Shown here: piece after piece, positions 2,798 through 3,787 of the stretch | Numbering within the stretch: position 1 is the stretch's first letter | Layout: each line of letters begins with the position of its first letter | From: Psychroflexus lacisalsi | GTDB lineage: Bacteria > Bacteroidota > Bacteroidia > Flavobacteriales > Flavobacteriaceae | Assembly (NCBI RefSeq): GCF_020164495.1 | Contig: NZ_JAIQYZ010000001.1 | Span: forward strand, 496,001-560,000 | Length of the DNA stretch: 64,000 nucleotides | Direction: 5' to 3' | Made by a program: the position numbers and the translations under genes | Notes under the pieces: model-generated | Database searches by the model: none | Told to the model about the DNA's origin: nothing | Seen by the model: the letters and a program-made list of their open reading frames with translations, nothing else

Positions 2798-3523
2798 TTA
2801 AACTTTGCTCAATTCACTATTCCATACCCTAGATAGATTTTTCAGCGAATTGAAAAGTTCTTTAAAAGAGGAAATGATGTAATAATCTTCCTGCATAATA
2901 TCTGTTCTAAACACTTTTTGAATGATGGCCTCAATAGAATACTCCAAAAAGTTAGCCTTTTGCTCATGAATTTGATTGGTTTCACCATAAGATGATAAAA
3001 TACCAGCACCATAAGATTGTATTTTCCCTTGTTCTTGTATGACGCCAAATTCAATAGTAAACCAGTACAGCCTCTGTAGTTGAAGAAGTTTTTCTGGATC
3101 ATCGAGAAATTGACAACCCAGCTTTCCAAATTCGTAAACAAATTCAGAAAAAATGGGATTACTTAATAAAGGGACATGGCCAAAAATATCGTGAAACATG
3201 TCTGGCTCTTCCAGGTAGTCCAAGCTATCTTTGGAACGCAGCCAGGTTGAAGAACAAAATTTGCGTTCGGCAAGTAATTGAAAAAAATCTTCTACAGGAA
3301 TAAGACCAGGAACCACCTTTAATTCCCACTTGGTCTCAGTCTCAAACCAAGTATTAATCTTTTCAAAACTTGGGATTTCATTTGCATTTAAAACTGGGGA
3401 CATATGTTCCAAAGCATCTATATATTCCTGAGAAGCTTTGCCAGAAATATTTTCTTTTTGTCTATTGAAGAGCGTTTTCCAAACCCATAAGTCTTCATTA
3501 GTGTACTTAGACATGTTTTGCAT
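2798..3523 (-). CDS. phhA: Phenylalanine-4-hydroxylase (tetrahydrobiopterin dependent)
   Basis: A 241-residue enzyme converting phenylalanine to tyrosine with oxygen, a pterin cofactor and non-haem iron. The aromatic amino acid hydroxylase signature PDMFHDIFGHVPLL gives iron ligands His111 and His116, and FTIEFG gives Glu158. It lacks the regulatory ACT domain of animal enzymes, and its length fits the bacterial catalytic core. Two in-frame ATGs are possible (3523 or 3514). No pterin recycling gene (phhB) is adjacent. Its 141-base leader carries a Tyr-rich reading frame and a terminator hairpin, so expression is probably controlled by transcription attenuation (see the leader features). Confidence 0.96.
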   Translation of the reverse strand: MQNMSKYTNEDLWVWKTLFNRQKENISGKASQEYIDALEHMSPVLNANEIPSFEKINTWFETETKWELKVVPGLIPVEDFFQLLAERKFCSSTWLRSKDSLDYLEEPDMFHDIFGHVPLLSNPIFSEFVYEFGKLGCQFLDDPEKLLQLQRLYWFTIEFGVIQEQGKIQSYGAGILSSYGETNQIHEQKANFLEYSIEAIIQKVFRTDIMQEDYYIISSFKELFNSLKNLSRVWNSELSKV

Positions 3524-3534
3524 AAGAGTTGTTT

Positions 3535-3576
3535 AAAAAAAAAATAAAAATCCCGATTCAATTGTGAATCGGGATT
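3535..3576 (-). terminator. Attenuator terminator in the phhA leader
   Basis: On the minus strand, AATCCCGATTCA (3576-3565), loop CAAT and TGAATCGGGATT (3560-3549) form a perfect 12-bp stem. It runs straight into a tract of T with a single A (3550-3535). It ends about 12 bases before the phhA ATG and therefore can only stop transcripts heading into phhA. On the plus strand it has no gene to terminate and no T tract. This is the terminator (3:4) arm of the proposed attenuator. Confidence 0.92.
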
Positions 3577-3605
3577 GATTTAGGTTTATTATTTTGAATG
3601 TACCA

Positions 3606-3665
3606 TTAACCGATTCTGTTGTTAAGAAGTCGATAATAGTAATAATATGTTTTTGTGTTAAGCAT
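3606..3665 (-). CDS. Tyrosine-rich leader peptide of phhA
   Basis: A 19-codon frame, MLNTKTYYYYYRLLNNRIG, with five tyrosine codons in a row (TAT TAT TAC TAT TAT, 3647-3633). It lies between a consensus promoter and the phhA terminator hairpin and ends 30 bases before the hairpin. The ATG lies only about 5 bases after the -7 box, so the transcript would start at or next to it (leaderless). The direct observation is the frame and its codons. The inference is that ribosome progress over the Tyr codons reports charged tRNA-Tyr to control phhA. It is too short for ordinary gene finders. Confidence 0.82.
   Translation of the reverse strand: MLNTKTYYYYYRLLNNRIG
3610..3632 (-). promoter_or_regulatory. 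Pre-emptor / antiterminator segments of the phhA attenuator
   Basis: Segment 1 (CGACTTCT, 3632-3625) directly follows the Tyr codons and can pair with segment 2 (AGAATCG, 3617-3611) through 7 bp with one bulged C. Segment 2 (GAATCGG, 3616-3610) can alternatively pair with CCGATTC (3572-3566) in the 5' arm of the terminator. A ribosome stalled on Tyr codons would cover segment 1 and free segment 2 to form the antiterminator. A ribosome at the stop codon would cover segment 2 and let the terminator form. The pairings were worked out by eye, not by a folding program. Confidence 0.75.
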
Positions 3666-3669
3666 TGAT

Positions 3670-3700
3670 CAAAATTAGATAATATCTCAAAATATACAAA
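3670..3700 (-). promoter_or_regulatory. phhA leader promoter
   Basis: On the minus strand TTTG (3700-3697), exactly 19 bases, then TAATTTTG (3677-3670). This is a perfect match to the Bacteroidetes -33/-7 consensus TTTG-N19-TAnnTTTG. The predicted start site falls on or next to the leader peptide ATG at 3665. Confidence 0.85.
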
Positions 3701-3787
3701 TCAACAAGTGTTAAACTAAAACATACTTCAATTGGTCACTTCTCAAAAAATATTAGTAATATCAAATTCATTAAAAATTATTGGAAT

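Follow-up and report, generated by a model that had tools for sequence, protein, structure and literature searches.

A probable tyrosine-specific leader-peptide attenuator upstream of the phenylalanine hydroxylase gene phhA in Psychroflexus lacisalsi and other Bacteroidota

In Psychroflexus lacisalsi, the phenylalanine hydroxylase gene phhA is preceded by a short Tyr-rich leader frame and an intrinsic terminator, which very probably constitute a tyrosine-specific, ribosome-mediated transcription attenuator of the trp type. The region lies on the minus strand of the 64-kb stretch of DNA that was analyzed (hereafter, the window). A trp-type attenuator with four pairing regions and Tyr codons had been proposed in a preliminary description of this DNA, and the proposal is supported by the conservation of the leader, by matched changes in its pairing arms, by predicted folds and by the use of Tyr-only codons. 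It is further supported by the absence of a Tyr leader upstream of all nine two-domain hydroxylases examined, out of about 53 genomes having such an enzyme.

From the sequence, we infer promoter activity, ribosome stalling, termination, read-through and a response to Tyr limitation, in the following scheme. Transcription would start at or a few nts before the leader AUG, and the leader peptide would be read from a nearly leaderless RNA. When charged tRNA-Tyr is ample, the ribosome would pass the Tyr codons, reach the stop codon and cover segment 2, leaving the 3:4 terminator to halt RNA polymerase ahead of phhA. When charged tRNA-Tyr is scarce, the ribosome would stall on the Tyr run and block segment 1; segments 2 and 3 would then pair before segment 4 is made, the terminator would not form and phhA would be transcribed, leading to the production of Tyr from Phe. 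If the leader is not translated, the 1:2 stem would form and the terminator would stay on.

Read along the minus strand, the region runs from the promoter (3700-3670) through the leader (3665-3606) and the intrinsic terminator (3576-3549) to phhA (3523-2798), and its individual features are collected in Table 1. The elements that the preliminary description had named were recovered where it placed them, namely the promoter TTTG-N19-TAATTTTG upstream of the leader, the 19-codon frame with five consecutive Tyr codons, which was confirmed by translation of 3665-3606, the pairing segments, and the 12-bp terminator stem followed by a long T tract ahead of phhA. The terminator hairpin consists of AATCCCGATTCA, the loop CAAT and TGAATCGGGATT, with a predicted energy of -16.4 kcal/mol. 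The protector stem is predicted as well but is larger than had been described, with 16 pairs in the predicted fold: the Tyr codons UACUAUUA pair with UAAUGGUA, which begins at the leader stop codon, and CGACUUCU is paired with AGAAUCGG. Folding of positions 3666-3524, which had been suggested as a check, gave -28.4 kcal/mol (z = -7.0), a value equalled or bettered by none of 200 shuffles.

Table 1. Features of the phhA leader region, in positions of the window
Feature	Position	Strand	Remark
-33 promoter element TTTG	3697..3700	(-)	19-nt spacer to the -7 box
-7 promoter element TAATTTTG	3670..3677	(-)	consensus TAnnTTTG, taken from PMC9723704
Leader ORF MLNTKTYYYYYRLLNNRIG plus stop codon, 19 codons	3606..3665	(-)	ATG 3665, predicted at +1
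Putative sensor, five consecutive Tyr codons TAT TAT TAC TAT TAT	3633..3647	(-)	part of protector segment 1
CGACTTCT, remainder of segment 1	3625..3632	(-)	pairs with segment 2
Segment 2	3601..3617	(-)	two parts, 3617-3610 and 3608-3601
Segment 2 part AGAATCGG	3617-3610	(-)	partner of the terminator 5′ arm
Segment 2 part TAATGGTA	3608-3601	(-)	partner of the Tyr codons
Segment 3, terminator 5′ arm AATCCCGATTCA	3565..3576	(-)	
Segment 4, terminator 3′ arm TGAATCGGGATT	3549..3560	(-)	
Intrinsic terminator T tract TTTATTTTTTTTTTA	3534..3548	(-)	
phhA, phenylalanine 4-monooxygenase, 241 aa, single domain	2798..3523	(-)	ATG 3523

The combination is more than a matter of chance. A scan of the window for ATG frames of 8-40 codons containing at least three identical residues in a row, with a hairpin and T-rich tail at most 110 nts downstream, returned four candidates, and the phhA leader was the sole one with a compact G+C-rich hairpin. 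The pattern TAYTAYTAYTAY is not enriched in the P. lacisalsi genome (16 matches, some of them overlapping and two of them the phhA leader, versus 38 for the reversed control), and inspection of these 16 Tyr-run matches by eye revealed no second Tyr leader that was leader-like and followed by a terminator. An Rfam search of the window gave no match at the gathering cut-off. Below this threshold, the leader families matching in 3480-3740 were PyrG_leader (33.9 bits for a cut-off of 65), Thr_leader (20.9 for 55) and Trp_leader (19.2 for 41). An identity as PyrG_leader was considered and rejected, the match having an E value of 0.004 and a score of about half its cut-off while covering the hairpin and T tract. 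The T-box family has no match in the window at the gathering cut-off and, in 3480-3740, does not figure among the 10 matches whose E value is at most 5.

Relatives of phhA were sought in 149 related genomes, 74 of which had a match (counted as 21 single-domain and 53 two-domain), and in named genomes, from which the best 80 loci were kept. A total of 110 loci was reduced to 90 by removing nine duplicates, two loci whose upstream sequence was too short and nine two-domain hydroxylases. Under a strict rule (a frame of no more than 45 aa that contains YYY or a longer Tyr run and lies in the 300 nts upstream of phhA), a Tyr leader was found in 51 of the 90 non-redundant single-domain loci, versus 1 of 90 on the reverse strand and a mean of 0.63 (maximum 3) of 90 in 40 dinucleotide-preserving shuffles. 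The same run rule applied to the 19 other residues retrieved 20 of 90 loci for Leu, which has six codons, and 0-3 of 90 for the rest.

A looser rule of three Tyr in five residues was then combined with a separate search for terminators. Leader and strong terminator occur together in 58 of the 90 loci, the leader alone in 2, the terminator alone in 7 and neither in 23 (Fisher p = 3e-13), which leaves 32 loci without the pair. Terminators are hence present in 58 of the 60 leader loci, L042 and L044 being counted with a wrong first-pass hairpin that overlapped the leader; L042 subsequently gave a hairpin behind the stop codon, and the pick for L044 is still doubtful. In the two loci with a leader only (L010 and L087), the leader-like ORF looks spurious. 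A short frame that places two Tyr in a stretch of five residues occurs in six of the seven loci with a terminator only (L043, L058, L063, L069, L082, L083 and L093). Within the genus, 16 of the 17 Psychroflexus phhA genes carry both parts, and the exception, L010, comes from a 79% complete assembly. The leader precedes phhA in P. gondwanensis and P. tropicus, for example. According to the preliminary description, attenuation would be contradicted by related phhA genes that have neither the Tyr run nor the terminator. Such genes do exist (23 of 90 loci, against 58 with both), and since the two parts are missing together, this is what is expected if leader and terminator work as a unit. The comparison of phhA upstream regions that it had called for came out in favor of its reading, in that the Tyr run and the terminator are conserved over divergent phhA genes and the arms show matched changes.

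Among the loci listed, the Tyr leader occurs under the labels Psychroflexus, Planktosalinus, Crocinitomix, Crocinitomicaceae, Fluviicola, Flavobacterium, Saprospiraceae, Lewinella and Chitinophagales. Some other listed loci under those same labels lack it, as do all four listed loci labelled Balneolaceae. An even sample of 392 genomes of the phylum contained 68 with a match, and 26 new loci were examined, of which at least L198 and L200 look identical to L084 and L109 of the 90. A clear Tyr leader was found in 2 of these 26 further loci (L203 and L211), most of the wider sample being without one. A covariance model (R1), built on 17 sequences and run over 100 genomes, returned 16 of its training loci as the 16 best matches, the 17th genome being outside the sample, and the next match was the phhA of G112, which is outside the training set. 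One weaker match, in G017, was a bare terminator.

Several side observations were made during these searches. Three weaker matches of R1 that were opened (L151, L152 and L157, in G007, G090 and G127) proved to be His-codon leaders that, with their terminators, lie immediately upstream of hisG (identified by Pfam), which the model finds because their architecture is similar to that of the Tyr leader. In family f22, four of five loci (L205, L206, L208 and L209) have a mixed His/Tyr phhA leader, for example MNPTPRTYVHHSYHFLQ plus stop codon, and a terminator, at most 320 nts upstream; two of the four terminators were seen by eye only. The terminator arm GGCCTATTCC is matched at the leader end by GGAATAGG or GGGATAGG in L206, L208 and L209, and L205 has AAGCCTAATCCC. 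Upstream of phhA in L214 and L215 (family f23), an attenuator-like pair, GGAGTTGGGC or GGAGTCGGGC with the terminator GCCCGACTCC, lies behind a short frame that has no Tyr run. The two-domain hydroxylase locus L022 has a YFYY stretch upstream, with no start codon. Finally, L073 (CP034120.1), labelled Glaciecola amylolytica, a gammaproteobacterium, carries the phhA leader MNKHMHISTYYYAFLNPGTE, which is similar to the leaders in L061 and L065 of Fluviicola; the genome is perhaps mislabelled.

Across loci, the predicted antiterminator arm and the terminator 5′ arm change together. Pairing energies were computed between the region from the last Tyr codon to 20 nts past the stop codon and the terminator 5′ arm of the same locus, and likewise between that region and the 5′ arms from all other loci. 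Over the 58 loci, the mean pairing energy was -9.54 kcal/mol for own arms, compared with -7.87 for permuted arms (sd 0.24; reached by 0 of 2000 permutations) and -5.34 for shuffled regions. In the 41 loci with less than 61% identity to the query, it was -9.53 for own versus -8.16 kcal/mol for permuted arms (0 of 5000). When one locus per phhA cluster was kept, the own pairing was reached by 0 of 5000 permutations both with n = 39 and with n = 27 (clusters below 65% identity), and by 18 of 5000 with n = 16 (below 58%). Matched changes can be followed by eye from AGAATCGG/CCGATTC in the window to GAAGCCGG/CCGGTTTC in L041, CGGGAAC/GTTCCCG in L045 and GGAGCGG/CCCTGCTCC in L086. At the level of single loci, the effect is frequently modest: 33 of the 58 have a 2:3 pairing stronger than in 95% of shuffles, two of the 58 not being computable.

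In the 17-sequence alignment of the genus, 96% of the 2:3 helix is paired and no both-sided change occurs, a result equalled by 500 of 500 shuffles; covariation is not seen there because the helix is nearly invariant. The 3:4 terminator has two pairs with a both-sided change, reached by 3 of 500 shuffles, which is a small but positive signal. For the 1:2 helix, 84% of the cells are paired versus 34-56% when the helix is slid, and its covariation, reached by 71 of 500 shuffles, does not stand out clearly from them.

Constrained folding of the window leader up to segment 4 predicts a different structure for each ribosome position. The ribosome-free RNA adopts the 1:2 stem (-11.6 kcal/mol). Placing a ribosome on Tyr codon 1, 3 or 5 makes the 2:3 antiterminator the most stable structure (-8.8 kcal/mol), and a ribosome at the stop codon leaves hardly any structure (-0.7 kcal/mol), so that nothing hinders the terminator. 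The same procedure was applied to 56 of the 58 loci (the missing two are apparently L042 and L044, on account of their wrong first-pass terminators), an antiterminator being counted from at least 5 pairs. It forms in 54 of 56 loci with the ribosome on the first Tyr codon and in 53 of 56 on the last, in 16 of 56 with no ribosome and in 7 of 56 with the ribosome at the stop codon, compared with 53, 44, 41 and 29% in the respective region-shuffled controls. In the full-length window RNA, the terminator is part of the best fold in every ribosome state, which in this folding model implies that switching, as in classical attenuators, would have to rely on kinetics.

A perfect TAnnTTTG ends 3-13 nts before the leader start in 38 of the 58 loci, with a gap of exactly 4 nts in 13 of them. 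Shuffles gave a mean of 0.74 and a maximum of 4 such loci, and random upstream positions 5 of 1074. Because the -7 box is so close to the leader start in these 38 loci, the phhA leader RNA is probably near-leaderless. The box was mapped at -12 to -5 in Flavobacterium psychrophilum according to PMC9723704, so that a 4-nt gap would place the A of the AUG at +1. Such short 5′ UTRs are unusual, since 5.5% of mRNAs are given as leaderless for F. psychrophilum (PMC9723704) and about 3.7% of 5′ UTRs as shorter than 10 nts in a Bacteroides map (PMC7366714). The host group is also reported to be without Shine-Dalgarno sequences (PMC9723704). The sequence TTTAACACTTGTTGATTTG (3715-3697, minus strand), around the -33 element, has no other exact match in the genome and two more with three mismatches, and may perhaps be a further operator or an extended promoter. 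By eye, it is resembled in several close Psychroflexus phhA promoters.

The codons of the leader can be compared with those of a related leader in the same genome. An operon encoding, according to Pfam, a prephenate dehydratase, an aminotransferase, a prephenate dehydrogenase and a DAHP synthase/chorismate mutase is preceded by a mixed Phe/Tyr leader, MTTRFYFYFNFYFADPAKRG plus stop codon (G000:C1:257473-257535; L132 2974-3036), with the terminator GCCTCGTTTCATACGGGGC at L132 3067-3085, so that leader to terminator spans G000:C1:257473-257584. By eye, GCGAAACGAGG at the leader end matches the terminator arm CCTCGTTTC. Mixed F/Y leaders were picked by hand upstream of pheA in 19 of 30 relatives (L167 was omitted as doubtful and L178 kept at a lower score), which together with the P. 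lacisalsi genome gives 20. In these 20 hand-picked whole leaders there are 65 Tyr versus 109 Phe codons, while the 58 whole phhA leaders hold 236 Tyr (TAT:TAC = 193:43) versus 38 Phe, with Phe inside the 7-residue core in 6. On these counts, codon content follows the product, Phe and Tyr for the common pathway and Tyr for phhA.

The product of phhA has the features of a phenylalanine hydroxylase. PhhA matches PF00351 (Biopterin_H) at 3e-44 over residues 6-232, and its best solved relatives are phenylalanine-4-hydroxylases (2e-53). When it is aligned with 1ltu, HDIFGH and the glutamate of TIEFG fall in register (HxxxxH and E), and we take the histidines and this glutamate to be the iron ligands. 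The NCBIfam PhhA models match at E values of 2e-73 and 2e-71, slightly below their curated equivalog cut-offs (NF008877, 246.5 of 247 bits; TIGR01267, 240.4 of 264.75 bits), and for this reason we infer the substrate specificity.

The purpose of the switch could lie in Tyr supply or in Tyr catabolism. The P. lacisalsi genome has tyrA. Five of the 17 phhA-bearing Psychroflexus (G003, G016, G019, G020 and G022) have no match to tyrA (PF02153) or pheA (PF00800) and retain phhA with its Tyr leader (loci L016, L014, L013, L011 and L012, respectively), and Tyr made from scavenged Phe would be the only visible Tyr route in these genomes. There is likewise no tyrA match in Planktosalinus (G068), nor in G112, an 83% complete assembly which has pheA and a YYYYY leader; G018 is without phhA, pheA and tyrA. 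HPPD is found in all 23 near-complete genomes of the genus, and 25 of 27 genus genomes have it over the cut-off. Tyr catabolism therefore exists, and phhA could also be catabolic. That the attenuator operates on a mainly catabolic phhA, merely sparing Phe when Tyr is plentiful instead of supplying Tyr for protein synthesis, is rather improbable, even though phhA belongs to a PhhR-activated catabolic operon in Pseudomonas aeruginosa (PMC1173090). The product of a catabolic gene would induce that gene rather than shut it off, and the leader-bearing phhA is kept in the five genomes with no pheA and tyrA match. In addition, a biosynthetic role of phenylalanine hydroxylase was proposed from fitness data in Echinicola vietnamensis, another member of the Bacteroidota (PMC7311316). 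A catabolic-only reading was hence considered and placed below Tyr supply. Taken together, the pheA/tyrA-less genomes, their leader-bearing phhA and the E. vietnamensis fitness data favor Tyr supply as the purpose of the switch, other uses being also possible.

Stalling by the nascent peptide itself, upon free tyrosine as in TnaC and not at empty A-site Tyr codons, is very unlikely. Peptide arrest would agree with the conservation, among the closest Psychroflexus species, of the residues that follow the Tyr run (about PLLNxRIG). However, the RIG codons conserved there make up segment 2 of the RNA switch, and in loci beyond the close clade the Tyr run and a similar leader length (13-26 aa, median 20) are retained, the downstream residues being variable. 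Arrest at high Tyr would moreover switch a biosynthetic enzyme in the wrong direction. There is an equally slim chance that the leader is a translated upstream ORF with no switch, the hairpin being a fixed terminator or the 3′ end of a small RNA and phhA having its own promoter. A fixed terminator would fit neither the joint gain and loss of leader and terminator nor the co-variation of segment 2 with the terminator arm, although G017:C146, a place away from phhA, has a terminator with a ATCCCGATTC stem too. The distance from terminator stem to phhA start (25 nts in the window; median 25 and range 14-92 over the 58 loci) leaves little room for a separate promoter. Least likely of all is that the leader mainly exposes or hides Rho sites or works by translational coupling through reinitiation, as argued for some leaders in PMC4833913, given that terminators accompany 58 of the 60 leader loci and that the same source ties reinitiation to short leader-gene distances, whereas here a median of 28 nts from stop codon to terminator is followed by the terminator and a further 25 nts.

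The tyrosine-specific attenuator thus favored belongs to a familiar type. Attenuation by leader peptides is established for Trp, His, Phe, branched-chain amino acids and Thr, and trpL, pheL and hisL represent the trp, phe and his types in Proteobacteria. The phhA leader shares with them a leader ORF with a run of regulatory codons, a predicted 1:2 protector, a 2:3 antiterminator, a 3:4 terminator and the position of segment 2 at the leader end, where a terminating ribosome would mask it. It differs from them in its Tyr-only codons, in its target, phenylalanine hydroxylase instead of a chorismate-branch enzyme, in its occurrence in Bacteroidota and in a start codon lying at or next to the predicted +1. 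In Sinorhizobium meliloti, the leader peptide of the rnTrpL/peTrpL attenuator is read from an RNA with no 5′ UTR, and the phhA leader peptide is similarly predicted to be read from an RNA with little or no 5′ UTR. However, rnTrpL/peTrpL senses Trp in an alphaproteobacterium, and trans functions such as those of its peptide are not suggested for the phhA leader. T-boxes bind uncharged tRNA directly and have no leader ORF. The tyrS attenuator of Enterococcus durans is presumably a T-box, in contrast to phhA, which has a leader ORF and lies in a window with no T-box match; the two have in common a Tyr-responsive attenuation, described for tyrS in PMC3315439 and predicted for phhA.

Closer to the phhA leader are the pheA-tyrA leaders of Flavobacteriales, which have the same architecture and are represented in the P. 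lacisalsi genome too. They carry mixed Phe and Tyr codons before a common-pathway operon, unlike the Tyr-only leader of phhA, whose product makes Tyr from Phe. AroR of Corynebacterium glutamicum (Phe-Tyr-Phe, before aroF) is also an aromatic-codon leader attenuator (PMC11802643), but it is mixed, actinobacterial and, according to this review, reportedly unaffected by Tyr availability. In Bacteroidota, clues of leader-peptide attenuation before amino-acid operons were described for F. psychrophilum, with the codons unspecified in the part of PMC9723704 drawn upon here, and PMC1173090 lists, from a database, an attenuator upstream of the pheA-tyrA cluster in Bacteroides thetaiotaomicron. A search of the open-licence literature found neither a Tyr-only leader peptide nor a phhA attenuator, and older comparative studies may mention one. 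A Tyr-only leader-peptide attenuator hence appears to be undescribed, and the phhA attenuator would extend a known mechanism to a new amino acid and target gene.

It is likely that the phhA leaders represent the first class of Tyr-only attenuators, an old one, present in several Bacteroidota lineages on near-leaderless RNAs and persisting after the loss of pheA and tyrA, with a PhhA that is Tyr-repressed and biosynthetic, opposite to the catabolic phhA of Pseudomonas, and with an f22 leader that drifted to His/Tyr. The close relatives would offer a natural series of attenuators (Tyr only, Phe and Tyr, His) for studies of ribosome stalling on near-leaderless RNAs. The phhA leaders would also provide a direct genomic argument that phenylalanine hydroxylase runs as a Tyr-biosynthetic enzyme in many Bacteroidota, a role which bears on the prediction of auxotrophy.
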